Shown: positions 13,520-20,817 of the stretch, piece by piece | Layout: each line of letters opens with the position of its first letter | Numbering within the stretch: the stretch's first letter is position 1 | Assembly: GCA_944390115.1 (NCBI GenBank) | Contig: CALXOW010000004.1 | Span: forward strand, 46,036 to 110,035 | Origin: an uncultured Anaerobiospirillum sp. | Lineage (GTDB): Bacteria; Pseudomonadota; Gammaproteobacteria; Enterobacterales; Succinivibrionaceae | Direction: 5' to 3' | Length of the DNA stretch: 64,000 nt | Made by a program: the position numbers and the translations under genes | Notes under the pieces: model-generated | Told to the model about the DNA's origin: nothing | The model's input: only the letters and a program-made list of their open reading frames with translations | The model's database searches: none

Positions 13520-14320
13520 ATGGGTATCAATTTCCTTGAGCCGTTCATGCTCAATTCGATTGATTCGATCATGTGGCCGTTGTGCCGCGTGGGCGGCTTC
13601 CTCATGGCGTTTATGGTCTTTAGCGCAGGCTCAGTGCCGACGCGTGTACGCGCCTTGCTCGCGCTCACGATCACCGTGTGCTTTTTGCCTAATATCCCGG
13701 CGGTGCGCACTGACATTCAGTCCTTTTCGGTCTTAGGCATTGTCACCACGATTTCGCAGGTGGTGATTGGCGCCGGTATCGGCTTTATGACCCAGTACTT
13801 GGCGCAGTGCTTTGTGCTGGCAGGCCAAGCGGTGGCGATGCAGACTGGTTTAGGCTTTGCCTCCTTAGTTGACCCGGTCTCAGGCACCAATGCGCCAATT
13901 ATCGGCCAGTTCTTTACCGTGCTGTGTACCTTGGTGTTCTTTGCCGTCGACGGCCATTTAGTCTTTATTCGGCTCTTGCTGTTGAGTTTTGAGACTATCC
14001 CCATTGCGCCCGGCGCCTTTACCCCACCGGGGCTTGAAGCCATCATCTTCTTTGGCGCGACTATGTTCCAATGTGCCCTGTCGACCGCCTTTGCCGCGAT
14101 CTGCACCTTGCTTGTGGTTAACTTCACCTTCGGTGTTATGACCCGCGCCGCACCGCAGCTCAACGTCTTCTCGATGGGCTTTGCCATCGCCTTAATCGTG
14201 GGCATGTTCGTGCTCATGATCAGTCTCAATGCCTTCATGGGCAATTTCACGATCGCGATCAACACGCTGATGAGCGACACCTGCACCTTGATGGGCACCT
14301 CGTGCGAAGGCATTTTCTAG
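13520..14320 (+). CDS. fliR: Flagellar export-gate protein FliR
   Basis: FliR completes the FliPQR gate. The 266 residues are almost wholly hydrophobic, with the family features PLCRVGGFLMAFMVFSAG near the start, a conserved GIGFMTQYLAQCFVLAGQAV region and VMTRAAPQLNVFSMGFAI near the end. GAGGG lies eight bases before ATG. In many bacteria flhB follows fliR directly. Here a 350-bp noncoding gap and an unrelated operon follow instead, so flhB and flhA must lie elsewhere. Confidence 0.97.
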   Translation: MGINFLEPFMLNSIDSIMWPLCRVGGFLMAFMVFSAGSVPTRVRALLALTITVCFLPNIPAVRTDIQSFSVLGIVTTISQVVIGAGIGFMTQYLAQCFVLAGQAVAMQTGLGFASLVDPVSGTNAPIIGQFFTVLCTLVFFAVDGHLVFIRLLLLSFETIPIAPGAFTPPGLEAIIFFGATMFQCALSTAFAAICTLLVVNFTFGVMTRAAPQLNVFSMGFAIALIVGMFVLMISLNAFMGNFTIAINTLMSDTCTLMGTSCEGIF

Positions 14321-14675
14321 CCTAAAAGTCATTACAGAAGGCTCACTGCAATTGATGACTCGGGCTAAGTCTTAGCGAGAGTCGTTTGGGTCAATACCCC
14401 GGTCAATTGCGCTGTGCTCTTAACCTGAGCTGTGCTGCTAAGAAACTCCAATTATTTGCGGCTAAAAATGCGTTATGATTGTACCTATACAGGATTCCGA
14501 TCCTATTGCCTGTAGGCAGGGCGTAACTGCTTGAGCGCTCTTGTTGATAGCGGTTCTCGTTTGCTTGTCATTGCGTGAAGCCTATTTCAGGATCTGAGTC
14601 CTAAATACTTAGTCAGTGTACTAAGATCCGCTGCGATTTTAGCCGTCTAAACTCAGAAGCTGCAAGGTGACAGTT
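14321..14675 (+). other. Noncoding gap with small hairpins upstream of the accessory operon
   Basis: No gene was seen. The gap marks the change from flagellar genes to the accessory operon. It has a TATGAT hexamer near 14474, without a clear -35. Nested arms follow: ACAGG-AGGAT/ATCCT-CCTGT around 14490-14520, then CTTAGT/ACTAAG near 14610-14630. These could form a folded leader or operators for the downstream pair, but the evidence is weak. Confidence 0.35.
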
Positions 14676-16826
14676 ATGGTGTGGTTTCAGAAACATGCGC
14701 GCTTGAACTCCCCTTATTCAGGTTATGGCAGGCAATTTGGAGCGCCAGGTGGCTCATATGAACCTGAAAGCCCAATCAGGAGACTTACCAAGGATGCTTA
14801 CGCTCAAGCTAAGCAAGGACAGGTGGCAGCAGCGCTGAGTTTGCTCGAGCAATATGAAGCCACCTATCGCAATGAGCTTGATTTTTGGAAATGCTACATC
14901 CATTGCTTGTCCAAGCTCTGTTGGCAAGATCACAGTAATTTCGCGCAGGATGAGGCATGGTGCGCGCTCTTTGAACAGCGCATGCAAATGCTTATGCGCG
15001 ATAGCTCTGAGGCCCGCAACCATAAGAGCTTTGATGAAGTTTTGTCAACAACTAATAGTTTTGATCAGCACATTCTCAAAGCGCTGAAATCGTTGCAGAA
15101 CTTGCGTGAAGAGCACTTGAGGCCGCCGCAGCAAGTTGCGCTCTTGCAGCAGGCTAAGGATGCCGCCAATAGCAAGAACAATCGTCAGGCGCTAGCACTA
15201 TATCAAGAAGCTATGGCCTGGGGGCCGCTCCCTGAAGCTGCTCTAAATAGCGTTGGATGGTGTATCTACCGATGCATAAAAGAAGAGATCGCCTCTCCAC
15301 GCGTGCAACTCAAACAGATTGAACAGCTCTTTGGTCTTTATCTGCAATGCTGTCCTGAGCCACAGCCGGGCCTTTTGCATTCCTTAATGTTTGTCCAACT
15401 TAGCAATATCTGTAAAGGGATCAATGACCAAAATGATCCCCAGAAAGAAAAAGGTGGCCAGCACTTTTACGGTGGCTACGATTTCAATGCCTGGTTGTGG
15501 CTCAAGCACATGGATGTGCTCAATACCCTCCAAAACGAAGATCTATATAGCAAACTTAGTGAAGACGGCAAAGAATATGACCCTCTGGTGATCGGGCTGC
15601 TGCGTCATGTGGCGAAGTTTGAGATCAACCAGATCAAGATGAGCAACAAGAAAGCTCAGGGCGGGGAGCGCATTGATTTGACGCCCGAGCAGGGTGAGCT
15701 GGCCAATTATCTGATTGCAGCAATTAGCAAATACCGCTCCTATGATCAGTCCAATAATCGCATTTGGCTCGACTATTACCAAGCTCAACTCCTCTATTGG
15801 ACGCAACGCTACGACGAGGCTTCTTCTCTGTATCGTTCTTTGGTGCAGCAAAAGAGTACTGAGTACTGGATGTGGAGCTCTTTGGCTAAAAGCTATGCTA
15901 AGCAGGGTGGTATAGCTGATAACTCGTTGATACAAAAAGGGGCGCAGTGCTTTGCGCAAGCGATTATGTGTCACCCTCAGAGCTCGGTTCTACCTTCACT
16001 TTACGTGCAAGCAGCCTGGGTTTTTAAGCAATGTGGCTATAGCAGCGTAGCGCAATTTCTTAAAGATGAGGCCACGAAGGATATACCATGGGCACCGCGT
16101 GCGAGCCGGGCACGGATTTGGATTGGCCCTGTCTCTAGTGATGATAAGGCTCAAGCTCAGGACGCATCACCTGAAGATGCGGCCCAGACTCTTATAGAGA
16201 CCCTCGCCAGTGAGGCCTCGGCAGAGCTGTACTCAGAACTGTCGTGGTATCACGCTAATTTGGGGCAAGCTTTTACCCAAAAGCCTAAAAACTCCAATAA
16301 AGCAGACTCTGGTAAAGGAGATGAACGAAAGCGCCGTACGATTTTGGTTAAATATCCTGGCTATGAGTTGCCGCTTAAGATCTCTATTAATGAAGAGCCA
16401 AGTTTGCGTAAGTTGCCGTTAGGGGTACCTTTGGAAGCGCGTGTGGAACGCGATGGATTTGATAGTAAAGGTGCACCGCGCTTTGTGGTGCGGCAGTTGC
16501 GCCTGCGGAGCTCAGAGCAAGCTGAGTCATGGGATTTGGTGCCGCTGCGTGCCTTAGTGATCACTAAGGTTGACAATGATGCTCATAAATATCACTTCCG
16601 CTATAACCGTGAGATTCATGGCACTCTGCCTTTTAATCTGCTGACCATCAAAAAGGGCTCAGAGCGTAGTGAACTGCCGCTTAAGCCCGGTGCAGTCTTT
16701 GAGTCGCGTCTTGGGGCGCAGCCGCGCTCAGGCTTTGTGGCCAGCATTTGCTTGGATGCGGCTTATCCGACTAACAAAGATCCTTTGCCTGAGGCGCTTA
16801 ACTATGTACGTAGTGACGAGGATTAA
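14676..16826 (+). CDS. Helical-repeat (TPR-like) protein with C-terminal OB/S1-CSD-like domains
   Basis: The first gene of a two-gene operon; the helicase starts 22 bases after its stop. ATG 14676 has AAGG eight bases upstream (a GTG at 14667 is the alternative). Residues about 25-500 are helical with TPR-like pairs, for example AYAQAKQGQVAAALSLLEQYE, NRQALALYQEAMAWGPLPEAA and YWTQRYDEASSLYRSLVQQ. A charged linker (NSNKADSGKGDERKRR) precedes about 160 residues that look like two small beta-barrels: LPLGVPLEARVERDG...KGAPRFVVRQLRLR, and ALVITKVDNDAHKYHFRY...GTLPFNLLTI. This architecture recalls the TPR plus S1/CSD-like proteins linked to TOTE-type conflict systems. That link is from memory and tentative. 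No enzymatic motif was seen. Leucine codons are mixed, unlike the TTA-dominated neighbours. Confidence 0.55.
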   Translation: MVWFQKHARLNSPYSGYGRQFGAPGGSYEPESPIRRLTKDAYAQAKQGQVAAALSLLEQYEATYRNELDFWKCYIHCLSKLCWQDHSNFAQDEAWCALFEQRMQMLMRDSSEARNHKSFDEVLSTTNSFDQHILKALKSLQNLREEHLRPPQQVALLQQAKDAANSKNNRQALALYQEAMAWGPLPEAALNSVGWCIYRCIKEEIASPRVQLKQIEQLFGLYLQCCPEPQPGLLHSLMFVQLSNICKGINDQNDPQKEKGGQHFYGGYDFNAWLWLKHMDVLNTLQNEDLYSKLSEDGKEYDPLVIGLLRHVAKFEINQIKMSNKKAQGGERIDLTPEQGELANYLIAAISKYRSYDQSNNRIWLDYYQAQLLYWTQRYDEASSLYRSLVQQKSTEYWMWSSLAKSYAKQGGIADNSLIQKGAQCFAQAIMCHPQSSVLPSLYVQAAWVFKQCGYSSVAQFLKDEATKDIPWAPRASRARIWIGPVSSDDKAQAQDASPEDAAQTLIETLASEASAELYSELSWYHANLGQAFTQKPKNSNKADSGKGDERKRRTILVKYPGYELPLKISINEEPSLRKLPLGVPLEARVERDGFDSKGAPRFVVRQLRLRSSEQAESWDLVPLRALVITKVDNDAHKYHFRYNREIHGTLPFNLLTIKKGSERSELPLKPGAVFESRLGAQPRSGFVASICLDAAYPTNKDPLPEALNYVRSDED

Positions 16827-16848
16827 TAGGATTTAGGTGGGATAAAGT

Positions 16849-19800
16849 ATGGGCAATGTCAATTGGACCTCTGAGACGAGCAATTCAGCCTTGCAACTAC
16901 AAAATGTGGTCGTGGAAGCGCAACAAAAAAAGAATGCCGCAAGTCAGCTGGCACTGAGAAATTTTTATTCCTGTGAGCTCAGCCCAGATCAAGAGCGCGT
17001 AGTCGAGGAACTATGGCAGTTTTTTAGCAGTGAGCAGCAGGTGTTTTTGCTCAAGGGTTACGCTGGTACCGGTAAAACTTTTTTGCTCGGAGGTATCGTG
17101 CGCTACCTTAGTGCGCTTGAGTGGCAGTCTTGCTGCTGTGCGCCTACCGGTAAAGCGGCAAATGTATTAAGAGACAAGCTCGACGTTGCGGCCTTTACTA
17201 TCCACCAAACCATCTATGATTTTAACGTGACTAGTGATTGGGCTCATCACGAGGCGAAAGGGAGTACGCTGGGCCGTGAAGATGAAAACGATACGATTGT
17301 CGTAGGAAGCATTAAGACTGACCAACCGAGCTGCCTTGTGATGCTGGTTGATGAAAGCTCGATGATTTCTGATGAGGTGATGGATGATGATGATTACATT
17401 TGCGGTTCGGGTAAGCTGCTAAGCGATATCTTTACTTTTTTGCAACTTGAGAAGTACCCAGGACGTAAGGTTATCTTCGTTGGCGACGCCGCTCAATTAC
17501 CTCCGGTGGGCAGTAAAATTTCTCCGGCACTCAGTGCTCAGTACCTCAAAAAACATTTTGGTTATGCTGTGGTAGAAGATGAGCTCCGCTCGATTGTGCG
17601 CCAGCAGGCTCAGAGCGCAATTTTGCAGAACTCATTGAAATTGCGCCAAGGGCTGCAAAACAACTTCTATCAAGAACTGGCCTTTACCTTCAAGTATGGT
17701 GAGGTTGATACAGCTGCCTCGCATGATTCTTTGGTGCAGGATCTGGCCCACCGCTATAAGGCAGAGCTGGCACAGCAGCGTATGCCCCAAGTTTCTATGG
17801 TTTGTTACTCTAATCAGCTTGCCTTGGGGTACAACCTATATATTCGCCATTACTTGTTTAATCTACCTTATTACGCCTCAGATTCAGGTCTTCAGGGGGT
17901 GTACGCCGGAAACTACGATCAGATGCCAGTCGAGCATCCATTGGACTTGCAAGTTGGCGATTTGCTCTTGGTTTTACGCAACAACTACCTACATTATCTT
18001 TACAACGGTCAGTTGGTGCTGCTGGGGCAGTTTGATCCTACTGCTCTGATCACTCGTACTATCCATCTGCGTCAGAGCAAAGCAGAGCAGCGGAAACTTG
18101 GGTTGAAGGAGAGTGACTCTAATTGGATTGAGGTCACGCTCAAATTCTTGCCGGTGGAGTTGTTGTACAGTGCCTCCGATAATAAATGGGTTATCAAAAA
18201 GGTGCTGTTGCTGACCAATGCTCTGTATTCGCCTGAACGCTCTATCAGCCATGACGAACAACGGGCACTGTATGTTGACTTTATAAAGCGTCACGATGGG
18301 GTAAAGCGTGGTAGCAATGAGTTTATATCAAAATTAAAAGACGATCCTTATTTCAATGCCGTCCAAGTGCATTTTGGCTATGCCTTAACCTGCCACAAAG
18401 CTCAGGGTAGTGAATGGCAGCATGTCTTTGTTGACTGCAATGGCTCAACTGGTGCCAATGAGCAGAACTTCCGCTGGCTCTATACTGCGATTACCCGTGC
18501 CAAGTCCCATTTGACTCTGATTAATTATCGTGAACGCAAGGTAGCAAGCAAGCTTAAGATAGCTAGCACCTTTAAGTTCAATGCAACAGAGTTACCTGCC
18601 ATCACCTCCAATACCCCACAAGCACAGAGTTTAAACATTTTACGTGAGCCTGATCGAGGACAGCCTGTACCGAGTTTAAGTGATCAGTATGAGTCAGACT
18701 GGAATAAAACAGCTTCCAATATAGTTTCACGTATAAATTCGAGTTTAGATGAGCAGCATGAACCAACCTGGGACCAATCCGTTCCTCCTTTTGCTCAGTC
18801 TCATGGGGCAAACTGGGACCAATACGTTCCACCTTTTGCACAGACGCGTGAGCGAAGATGGGAGCCACCTGTTCCGCCTTATGTAGATCCGTCTGAGCAA
18901 AACTGGGAGCCACCAGCTCCGCCTTATGCGGATCCGTCTGAGCAAAACTGGGAGCCACCAGCTCCGCCTTATGCGGATCCGTCTGAGCAAAACTGGGAGC
19001 CACCGGCTCCGCCTTATGTGGAGCCGTATGAGCCAAACTGGGAGCCACCGGTTCCGCCTTATGCGGAGCCGCCTGAGCAAAGCTGGGAGCCACAGGTTTC
19101 GCCTTATGCGGAGCCGCCTGAGCCACACAGGGACCAATCCGCTGCGCGCTTACACGCCCAGCCAGATTCTAGTCTTCGCAGTAATGTTACACAGCCTGAG
19201 CCGTACTTTTATCAAGGTGATGCTGCAGTCGCACCAATTAACTGTGCCGAAGAAGTAGCCTCGCCTCTGCGGAATGCTGCTTCTGCACCTATAGCGCAGA
19301 GGAGCGATATAGCAAGCTCCCCAGCTGAGCAGCTGGTATCGTTTTGTGCTGAACAGTGCTGTCAGCTGTCCTATGCTCATTTACAGGTTAGCCACTTAGC
19401 TTCGCCTGATTACCAAGAGCAGCTCAGTATCTCAGATGCGCGTGAAGGTAAGAGCCTGGTCTTGCAAGTGTACTATGGCGGTAATGACTGTTACTCCAAA
19501 GTGCGCGTCAGCAAAAGCAATCTCGACCAGCAGCTGAGCAGTAAGCTAGTTGATGCTCTAAATGCTGCCCTAAAAGGACGCTCGCGCTTTAATCTGACGG
19601 GCGAGAACACCTCCTCAATTGCGGCGGTAGAGCCACCTGATATGGGCAATGCAGGCTTTAACGACTATTTAAGGCGTCTTCAGGCGTACCTTGCCCAAAA
19701 TAAGATTTTGACAATTTCTTGGCAAGAGTTGCAGTATGTGCTGCGCGTTAAGTTTCAGGCAGCAGCGGATATTGCGCCTAATATCCATGGCGGCGATAGT

Positions 19801-19920
19801 GTTGAGCTCGATCTTAATTACAACGGCAGGTTTGCGATAACTTATATCAGCCCTTCGCGCAAAGGAGAGGGCGATAAACCGTTAGGACGTCTAGTGCTTT
19901 CCCTTATCCACAGCCTATAG
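16849..19920 (+). CDS. RecD/Dda-like superfamily 1 helicase with W/P/Y repeats and unknown C-terminal domain
   Basis: Residues about 40-570 form an SF1 helicase with the expected motif order: GYAGTGKT (I, about 70), CAPTGKAA (Ia, about 98), VDESS (II, about 166), GDAAQLPPVG (III, about 212), CHKAQGSEW (V, about 515) and YTAITRAKSHL (VI, about 545). The family unwinds DNA 5' to 3' using ATP. An insertion of about 200 residues between motifs III and V includes NLPYYASDSG and NNYLHYLYNGQ. Eight 15-residue Pro/Trp/Tyr units occupy about 640-759. A C-terminal domain of about 195 residues, which I do not recognise, ends VLSLIHSL. AGGTGGG precedes ATG. It is translated with the upstream helical-repeat protein and ends before a strong terminator. 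Leucine codons are mixed, in contrast to neighbouring core genes. Confidence 0.8.
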   Translation: MGNVNWTSETSNSALQLQNVVVEAQQKKNAASQLALRNFYSCELSPDQERVVEELWQFFSSEQQVFLLKGYAGTGKTFLLGGIVRYLSALEWQSCCCAPTGKAANVLRDKLDVAAFTIHQTIYDFNVTSDWAHHEAKGSTLGREDENDTIVVGSIKTDQPSCLVMLVDESSMISDEVMDDDDYICGSGKLLSDIFTFLQLEKYPGRKVIFVGDAAQLPPVGSKISPALSAQYLKKHFGYAVVEDELRSIVRQQAQSAILQNSLKLRQGLQNNFYQELAFTFKYGEVDTAASHDSLVQDLAHRYKAELAQQRMPQVSMVCYSNQLALGYNLYIRHYLFNLPYYASDSGLQGVYAGNYDQMPVEHPLDLQVGDLLLVLRNNYLHYLYNGQLVLLGQFDPTALITRTIHLRQSKAEQRKLGLKESDSNWIEVTLKFLPVELLYSASDNKWVIKKVLLLTNALYSPERSISHDEQRALYVDFIKRHDGVKRGSNEFISKLKDDPYFNAVQVHFGYALTCHKAQGSEWQHVFVDCNGSTGANEQNFRWLYTAITRAKSHLTLINYRERKVASKLKIASTFKFNATELPAITSNTPQAQSLNILREPDRGQPVPSLSDQYESDWNKTASNIVSRINSSLDEQHEPTWDQSVPPFAQSHGANWDQYVPPFAQTRERRWEPPVPPYVDPSEQNWEPPAPPYADPSEQNWEPPAPPYADPSEQNWEPPAPPYVEPYEPNWEPPVPPYAEPPEQSWEPQVSPYAEPPEPHRDQSAARLHAQPDSSLRSNVTQPEPYFYQGDAAVAPINCAEEVASPLRNAASAPIAQRSDIASSPAEQLVSFCAEQCCQLSYAHLQVSHLASPDYQEQLSISDAREGKSLVLQVYYGGNDCYSKVRVSKSNLDQQLSSKLVDALNAALKGRSRFNLTGENTSSIAAVEPPDMGNAGFNDYLRRLQAYLAQNKILTISWQELQYVLRVKFQAAADIAPNIHGGDSVELDLNYNGRFAITYISPSRKGEGDKPLGRLVLSLIHSL
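18766..19125 (+). repeat. Eight in-frame 45-bp repeats in the helicase gene
   Basis: Each unit encodes 15 residues of the form NWEPPAPPYADPSEQ. The first two units are divergent (WDQ.VPPFAQ), the fourth and fifth are identical at the protein level, and a decayed ninth unit follows. Near-identical central units suggest recent expansion by slippage or recombination. Confidence 0.9.
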
Positions 19921-19988
19921 CACGTTTGTGGCATCAGGAGAGCCGACTTGCTGGGATCGGTTAGATTACCTTAACGAACGTTGAAGCC

Positions 19989-20028
19989 AAAAGAAAGGCC
20001 GCAGTCCTGAGGACTGCGGCCTTTCTTT
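19989..20028 (+). terminator. Strong bidirectional terminator between helicase and maoP
   Basis: A near-perfect inverted repeat (AAAAGAAAGGCCGCAGTCC / GGACTGCGGCCTTTCTTTT) has A and T runs on both sides. It serves the helicase operon on the plus strand and maoP on the minus strand. Confidence 0.9.
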
Positions 20029-20046
20029 TATGAAAGCTAGAGCTTT

Positions 20047-20394
20047 TTACTCGATGGAGCCCTCGTCGCCACCACCGGAAAAATCGCCGCCGCTCATTTC
20101 ATCGTCGGCGCCGACGGTGCACAGACGGTGCAGACGGCGTGGCTGGATCACTTGCAGATACTTCTTGAAGATCTTGGCATATGGATCGGTGATCACGTCG
20201 TCAGAGTGTAACTGCTCTAAGAAGACCTTCTCGGTCTCATCAGCTGGCTTGCGCTGGCCTAAGTGCAGCTCCATCATTGCGGTGCCGCATTGCTCTAAAA
20301 TGCCACTTTCACGAATCGAGAACTCGCCCGAGCGACGGATGCCACGGGCAAAGTGTTGAAAGTCGTTAAATTGCTTTTCAGATTCAAAGCTCAT
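20047..20394 (-). CDS. maoP: MaoP/YifE-family (DUF413) protein
   Basis: MaoP is a cytoplasmic factor that in E. coli acts with the site maoS in organising the Ori macrodomain. The chosen start (minus-strand ATG at 20392-20394, GAGGGA upstream) gives 115 residues, close to the E. coli protein. Matching features are NDFQHFARGIRRSGEFSIRE, LLE-like ILEQCGTAMMEL, the LGQRKPADETEK block and the YLQVIQPRRLHRL segment, then an acidic Gly-rich tail. A longer ORF start at 20445 lacks a ribosome site. It ends at the shared terminator with the helicase operon. Confidence 0.85.
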   Translation of the reverse strand: MSFESEKQFNDFQHFARGIRRSGEFSIRESGILEQCGTAMMELHLGQRKPADETEKVFLEQLHSDDVITDPYAKIFKKYLQVIQPRRLHRLCTVGADDEMSGGDFSGGGDEGSIE

Positions 20395-20817
20395 TATCTT
20401 TAGTCCCTCAACGAACTCAGGGTGGAGGTGGCAGGACGCAACCAACCTCTCGGCTTAGCTCAAAAAAGTGCGGCTTATTGTAGCCTATTTACCGCGAAAA
20501 TGGCGAGAAAAGCGCCAAAAAGCGTGGGGAGGTTTCTGAGAGCTTTGAACTTAGGGGCGGGCTTTGCTAAAATCGCGTGAGATTGACGGCGCCTCGGGCG
20601 CATTTTGTGTCTTTGGAACCCGACAAAAGTCGGATTTTGCGCTAAAATGCCCCGCCCACCGGTCAGGGCCTCCTAGGTCGGACTTGACGATGGGGCGGCC
20701 GCAGTTTGGAAGCCCCCACGCTGCAATTAACTGTGCTTAAAGCGGCGCTTAGTAGCGCGAGATGATTGAGTCCAGCTAATTGCATAGTGGGGCTTGTGTT
20801 TTAGATTGGAGAGCGCG
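20395..20817 (+). other. Divergent intergenic region between maoP and glnS
   Basis: No gene was seen. Two TTTGC...TAAAAT elements (around 20566-20576 and 20637-20649) could be -10 regions for glnS. A small hairpin CCGAC-AAAA-GTCGG at 20620-20633 followed by ATTTT lies between them. Confidence 0.35.

Follow-up and report, generated by a model that had tools for sequence, protein, structure and literature searches.

A two-gene TOTE-type helicase and TPR module, probably a horizontally acquired conflict system, between fliR and glnS of an Anaerobiospirillum-like genome

Background

Two long genes stand between fliR and glnS on a contig of an uncultured Anaerobiospirillum sp. (CALXOW010000004.1), within the stretch of 64,000 nucleotides analysed here, which we call the window. 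The locus raises the question of whether the two are a fixed housekeeping pair beside flagellar genes or an accessory module, and of what such a module would do. The names of the flanking genes (fliP and fliR to the left; glnS, purC and pyk to the right) are our reading of the open reading frames (ORFs), not the outcome of a family search. We read the pair, with moderate confidence, as a TOTE-type conflict system of two genes (PADLOC candidate PDC-M16) that was horizontally acquired and that would guide its helicase onto invaders. The domains, as predicted from profiles and models, the recurrent pairing and the accessory distribution are established by the comparisons below.

14676..16826, + strand: gene 1, 716 amino acids from the ATG, or 719 from a GTG at 14667
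16849..19920, + strand: gene 2, 1023 amino acids from the ATG at 16849

The ORF list gives both genes on the + strand with a spacing of 22 bp, as an earlier note on this DNA had also described. For gene 1 the ATG at 14676 is favoured over the GTG at 14667, and AAGGTG lies just 5' of the ATG.

Domain composition of the two proteins

16245..16505, + strand: first C-terminal barrel of gene 1 (residues 524-610), five strands, the third and fourth joined through a short helix; from the model, in a region aligned in 12 homologues
16548..16766, + strand: second C-terminal barrel of gene 1 (residues 625-697); from model and alignment, where relatives have S1CSD-TOTE-1
16849..18546, + strand: helicase core of gene 2 (residues 1-566), superfamily 1B (SF1B), Dda/RecD2-like; from Pfam, alignment, model and fold search
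18547..19314, + strand: predicted disordered linker of gene 2 (residues 567-822, 256 amino acids), with a predicted local distance difference test (pLDDT) below 50 throughout
18756..19123, + strand: 45-bp tandem repeats inside the linker, coding for proline-rich units like WEPPxPPYxxPxEQN; from Tandem Repeats Finder, a repeat search and reading of the units
19321..19914, + strand: tandem TATA-binding protein (TBP) repeats, TBP-TOTE, of gene 2 (residues 825-908 and 935-1022); from PF22721 and the model, aligned in 13 homologues

The gene 1 protein matched DUF7017 in Pfam (1.9e-12; 47.8 bits against a cut-off of 27.5), together with weak TPR matches, and the PADLOC model PDC-M16B (1.8e-43). Its AlphaFold2 model, built with 12 sequences as input, has a mean pLDDT of 80 and a predicted template modelling score (pTM) of 0.69, and consists of helices up to residue 518, arranged in TPR-like pairs, followed by two five-stranded barrels. 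A TPR superhelix is supported for the N-terminal part by profile and model alike, and both the TPR-like helices and the two small C-terminal barrels that the earlier note had read from the letters are present in the predicted structure. A PDB fold search with gene 1 returned TPR-type superhelices at low template modelling score and, because its matches are of that kind, is no test of the barrels.

The short helix that separates strand 3 from strand 4 in the first barrel is also a feature of the OB-fold topology. Among ten relatives scanned (E up to 0.05), seven carry S1CSD-TOTE-2 and four carry S1CSD-TOTE-1, the latter above the cut-off in two, and two further TPR proteins scanned carry both. 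The nearest relatives, in genomes G007 and G002, were matched by neither domain; in the alignment these two proteins and that of the window end before the position of S1CSD-TOTE-2. Profile-profile comparison matched the C-terminus of the window clade to the C-termini of nine relatives (E 2.4e-12). From this comparison and the model, the barrels of gene 1 are predicted to be OB-like, of the S1/CSD type.

The core of the gene 2 protein matched AAA_30/UvrD_C_2 in Pfam and PDC-M16A in PADLOC (8.4e-153). Walker A, Walker B and the other key residues of superfamily 1 (SF1) are invariant across a 13-protein alignment, in keeping with the full set of SF1 motifs claimed earlier for the second gene. The nearest solved folds in a PDB search are DSH9, T4 Dda and RecD2, and also Pif1, and since helicases dominate the matches the search is no test of the TBP tail. 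This tail (residues 825-1022) was modelled as helix-four strands-helix, twice over, and matched PF22721 in two stretches at 1.4e-6 and 28.2 bits, just over the cut-off of 27. Pfam searches found no DUF4145 in the gene 2 protein, and recognised no nuclease or other toxin domain in gene 1 or gene 2. As an observation apart, the copy number of the Pro/Trp-rich linker repeats (18756-19123) may differ between strains.

Relation to known systems

By its sequence the window pair is almost certainly a member of the known TOTE class and a match to the PADLOC candidate PDC-M16, whose components A (helicase) and B (TPR protein) stand side by side in the window. TOTE conflict systems are said to go back to Aravind, Iyer and Burroughs in 2022. 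In excerpts of PMC12458937, the name stands for TPR, OB, TBP and Effector. The window pair shares with these systems its TPR, TBP-like and OB (S1/CSD-like) domains, its presumed effector is a helicase, and TOTE-named Pfam families match its proteins or their direct homologues. It differs in that the gene order is reversed, the linker is rich in repeats, and S1CSD-TOTE-2 and DUF4145 are lacking; the name itself requires an OB domain, not S1CSD-TOTE-2 in particular. The best reading of this domain content is a stripped-down TOTE, with neither DUF4145 nor S1CSD-TOTE-2 predicted. What is present by way of an effector is an SF1B helicase with conserved motifs, and because no nuclease domain was recognised in either gene and DUF4145 is lacking, the effector role would fall to the helicase itself. 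The TOTE-type conflict module that the earlier note had suspected is thus upheld by DUF7017, TBP-TOTE and PDC-M16A/B, by S1CSD-TOTE domains in most of the homologous partners scanned, and by the recurrent adjacency described below.

The PDC-M16 models carry no description, and no paper using the term was found in the open literature searched. TPR-CSD and TBP proteins are common to TOTE and TALON, according to excerpts of PMC12458937. TALON differs in being built round a YprA helicase together with a NERD nuclease. Neither a YprA-like helicase nor a NERD nuclease was among the Pfam matches of the two window genes. Dda, RecD2 and Pif1 have the helicase core fold and motifs found in gene 2; RecD2 differs in that gene 2 falls far under the cut-off of the NCBIfam RecD2 equivalog model (115.4 against 500 bits), and to our knowledge none of the three carries a TBP-like tail.

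In some relatives (L105, L028 and L118) an N-terminal DUF4145 is fused to the same helicase. Excerpts of PMC3710099 place DUF4145 in the HEPN superfamily and give a fusion to UvrD helicase among their examples. These fusions lend themselves to an abortive infection reading, in which the pair would sense phage nucleic acid and the helicase would harm host replication or transcription, so that the cell dies before phage release. The window protein itself has no DUF4145 or other recognised toxin or nuclease domain, and for this pair we consider cell suicide distinctly improbable, a TOTE-type system acting on the invader being preferred.

Recurrence of the gene pair

Pairs were surveyed by scanning genome contigs with a helicase alignment, and the counts given here describe the best 80 of 567 relatives; an earlier scan of genome contigs with gene 1 alone as query had given no matches. 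TBP repeats lie in or beside the helicase at 45 of the 80 loci (34 of the others had no TBP match, and L193 had no helicase ORF). A TPR gene adjoins on the same strand at 39 of the 45, and in 37 of these 39 pairs the genes overlap or lie within 30 bp. The six TBP loci that have no TPR neighbour are L139, which lies at a contig end, L142, L147, L166, and L161 and L169, where the TBP-like ORF is separate. The helicase precedes the TPR gene in 38 of the 39 pairs, the window having the opposite order, and the sole reversed pair of the survey (L151) is from a member of the window's family. Loci L115, L116, L136 and L151 seem to repeat the pairs of genomes G007, G361, G035 and G020, and the contig survey therefore overlaps with our survey of the family and class.

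Distances between helicases correlate with distances between their partners (Mantel r 0.82 over 41 pairs, none of 2000 permutations being as high). The set for this comparison consisted of the 39 pairs less L136, L151 and L154, which have split or partial genes, with the addition of the window and genomes G001, G002, G008 and G019.

Within the window's family the helicase was found in 13 of 57 genomes at E 1e-30, and G050 was added through its TBP domain. A TPR gene, whole or in part, adjoins the helicase in ten of these 14 genomes, with the helicase first in seven (G001, G002, G007, G008, G019, G035 and G044) and the TPR gene first in three (G000, which is the window's genome, G020 and G056). 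The pair is widespread, and the pairing is strong, not absolute: the genes recur together, as the earlier note's reading requires, at 39 of 45 loci, and exceptions are seen in one related genus (g12).

Distribution and insertion sites

Whole-genome searches for TBP-TOTE gave no match in G000, although a protein scan finds the window's own copy, and counts of genomes from these searches are low estimates for that reason. As such low estimates, a class-wide sample of 369 genomes has TBP-TOTE in two (G172 and G361), and the 57 family genomes have it in 18. In G361 a strong DUF7017 gene lies beside the TBP-TOTE gene; the DUF7017 neighbour in G172 is weak (24.3 bits, below the cut-off) and was missed by our own TPR profile. 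Five of the 18 family genomes (G003, G004, G005, G009 and G010) were counted through a helicase-less gene only, and two (G001 and G008) through both kinds of gene.

14332..19984: inserted stretch, 5,653 bp long by comparison with the empty site in genome G006; from blastn
19989..20029: terminator, a perfect 20-bp inverted repeat adjoining the converging gene and belonging to the site itself; from a repeat search, and kept in the empty G006 site

The gene fliR is present in all 11 genomes of the genus. In the sister genome G006, where fliR is 99% identical, about 120 bp separate it from the converging gene, with the terminator kept and the module absent. When window positions 14201-20500 were compared by blastn with the fliR junction of G006, the match stopped at 14331 and restarted at 19985, with 12 bp between the two points in G006. 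The gap between fliR and the converging gene is likewise short, about 145 to 700 bp, in G009, G002, G004 and G010. The empty G006 site and these short gaps rule out a housekeeping pair that is fixed in its place next to the flagellar genes, and on this point the strain comparison sides with the earlier note. The same note had given the pair a strong terminator of its own; the terminator is not the module's, since the same inverted repeat stands at the empty site.

The slot after fliR (window positions 14321-19984) is occupied differently elsewhere. It holds an AAA-ATPase_like/PDDEXK_9 gene in G005 (L096), a fragmented restriction gene of type IIG in G008 (L104), and in G007 (L101) a DUF4241 ORF followed by the contig end; the contigs of G001 and G003 end too near fliR to show it. 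The slot is likely an insertion hotspot with cargo that differs by species. In G001 and G008 the pair itself sits between rseP and bamA (names from ORF reading), two genes that are adjacent in eight other genomes of the genus, G002 being outside this comparison. G002 and G007 have the pair at two further places. With the pair in five of 11 genus genomes and at four places in all, it is accessory and horizontally variable.

This distribution bears on the possibility that the module serves accessory DNA repair or the relief of transcription-replication conflicts, its Dda/Pif1/RecD2-like helicase clearing host R-loops and stalled complexes with the help of RNA- and DNA-binding parts, and is retained to maintain the genome instead of to defend the cell. 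The closest folds, DSH9, Dda, RecD2 and Pif1, and the OB- and TBP-like domains of the two partners would suit such work. Sporadic occurrence in the family and class, variable sites and carriage on plasmids would not, and we regard a repair role as unlikely compared with a TOTE-type conflict system.

GC content in 1-kb windows is 47-52% across the pair, 50-60% in the left flank and 50-54% in the right. GC content at third codon positions (GC3) is 0.49-0.51 in the pair against 0.57-0.74 in ten other window genes tested. A contrast in leucine codons had also been put forward, and it holds in part: TTA makes up 4% and 15% of leucine codons in the pair against 27-55% in seven non-flagellar genes tested, but the adjoining fliP and fliR are likewise TTA-poor (12% and 17%), for which reason GC3 is the better compositional signal. 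No sigma-70-like promoter was found in the gap upstream of gene 1. Over 14250-20100 there were two sigma-70-like matches, fewer than in shuffled sequences (mean 5.3, standard deviation 2.2), and a family search found no RNA families within 14200-20500.

Carriage on mobile elements

Gene 1 matches 13 plasmid records at 1e-5, and among the 12 matches listed a helicase match adjoins in all 12. One plasmid-borne pair is on a conjugative plasmid, and pairs are found on conjugative and mobilizable plasmids. A further pair lies on an IMG/VR contig (L195, the sole viral locus scanned for a partner). In 50,697 phage records gene 1 was unmatched at 1e-5.

Plasmid and viral carriage of this kind might point to a selfish module, borne on plasmids or islands, that aids competition or persistence of its element and shields that element instead of the cell. 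The window pair, however, lies between core genes, with no long edge repeats and no integrase-like gene among the ORFs read alongside, and gene 1 had no match in the phage records at 1e-5; we give selfishness little credence beside a system that would defend the cell. A transposon or integrase-borne island was considered for the window and rejected: no repeats stand out at the edges, and the ORFs read beside the pair include nothing integrase-like (the flanking ORFs were not run through the family library). The earlier description of a mobile defence module stands as to presence and absence at the site. It does not extend to a transposon: because neither an enzyme for insertion nor repeats at the edges were observed, 'mobile' here means horizontally variable.

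Genomic neighbourhood and probable function

Neighbours were taken as two ORFs of at least 120 amino acids per side, which gave 119 at the pair loci and 117 at 34 control helicase loci that have no TBP match. The control set is imperfect: two of its loci, L127 and L140, are cut off by contig ends, and a third, L138, lacks a TBP match yet has a TPR partner. The commonest Pfam families among the 119 pair neighbours were Response_reg (7), iREC (6), HisKin-conflict (4) and Phage_integrase (4), and eight pair loci have a related upstream protein in common. At L141 the genes run HisKin-conflict, iREC/receiver protein, helicase-TBP, TPR-OB. As a separate observation, in Bacteroidota loci (L141:4486-7934 and similar) the helicase-TPR pair is immediately preceded by genes for a histidine kinase of conflict type and an inactive receiver. 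This core follows these two genes in other lineages, or is fused to DUF4145. The names HisKin-conflict and iREC record that the domain authors saw conflict contexts, and do not prove a function.

A defence role for the pair is likely. The TPR-OB protein may serve as a scaffold for nucleic acid (single-stranded DNA or RNA) and probably also for the helicase, while the tandem TBP repeats would form a saddle on a flexible linker and hold duplex or distorted DNA. Together these parts would load the SF1B helicase, presumably 5'-3' by kinship, onto phage or plasmid nucleic acid, where its translocation would strip replication or transcription complexes.

In favour of a horizontally acquired TOTE-type system are the TOTE-named domains, the PDC-M16A/B matches, the pairing and the Mantel correlation, the empty and multiple sites, and the pairs on plasmids. 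The HisKin-conflict and iREC neighbours in Bacteroidota, the restriction-type cargo of the fliR slot in G008 and its AAA/PD-(D/E)xK cargo in G005 are further support. A number of findings weigh on the other side. In the remaining four family genomes with the helicase, all of genus g12, the TPR gene was not seen beside it: G049, G050 and G053 have it on another contig with different genes on both sides (the G053 helicase being at a contig end), and G052 gave no match to a TPR gene. On plasmids the helicase occurs in 68 records at 1e-30 against 13 for gene 1 at 1e-5, so that most plasmid helicases are without a recognisable gene 1. PADLOC does not separate the neighbours of pairs from those of controls: the top families, among the 25 commonest of each set, reach 3 of 119 and 2 of 117, and 144 families were matched in all at pair loci against 152 at control loci, with no enrichment. 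On this evidence the word defence in the earlier note is an interpretation. No S1CSD-TOTE domain was matched by Pfam in the window's gene 1 protein at E up to 1, and the profile comparison and model behind its OB-like barrels are an indirect basis. The gene 2 model is weaker overall (mean pLDDT 67, pTM 0.54, 13 sequences), with core and tail good. TOTE is named in domain databases, and the open literature searched, which included excerpts of PMC12458937, yielded a single relevant paper with a mention of TOTE and no experimental test of TOTE or PDC-M16.

What the window offers is a compact two-gene TOTE that has no extra toxin or regulator genes and a sister genome with a natural empty site. 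The pair would make the core question directly testable, namely whether helicase, TBP and TPR-OB parts defend alone.

Rearranged TOTE parts in the family

Within genus g12, a different gene follows the helicase-TBP gene in three genomes, in the place of the TPR gene (L031:3543-4241, L041:2-1120 and L043:2-1120). G017 (L019:6632-12394) has a TBP-like ORF, matched by our own profile only (1.2e-7), followed by two tandem TPR-OB genes, and no helicase was found there.

L290:6331-8496 (window genome G000, contig 72), L291:5857-8376, L108:8488-10410, L109:6363-8693 and others: copies of a helicase-less gene with TBP-TOTE-like repeats near corC

This helicase-less gene was found in nine of the 11 genus genomes, that of the window included, and not in G002 or G007. 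Usually one small ORF lies between it and corC, with lnt on the far side. The names miaB, ybeY, corC and lnt come from ORF reading, and contig 72 of G000 ends before the expected place of lnt. The window genome's copy scores 21.2 bits, under the Pfam cut-off of 27, and the basis for its assignment is consequently the family alignment together with the G004 copy, whose 29.2 bits exceed the cut-off. A very tentative idea is that TOTE parts have been dismantled and reused in the family, as a minimal helicase-only TOTE of two genes in the window, a helicase-less G017 locus, split g12 genes and a corC-linked TBP-like protein. On this idea the last could serve the mobile pair as a chromosomal regulator, as a decoy or as an immunity partner, and a TBP-like factor would be at work in bacteria. 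By sequence, the corC-linked gene appears to code for a TATA-binding-like protein that is conserved within a cluster of bacterial core genes.

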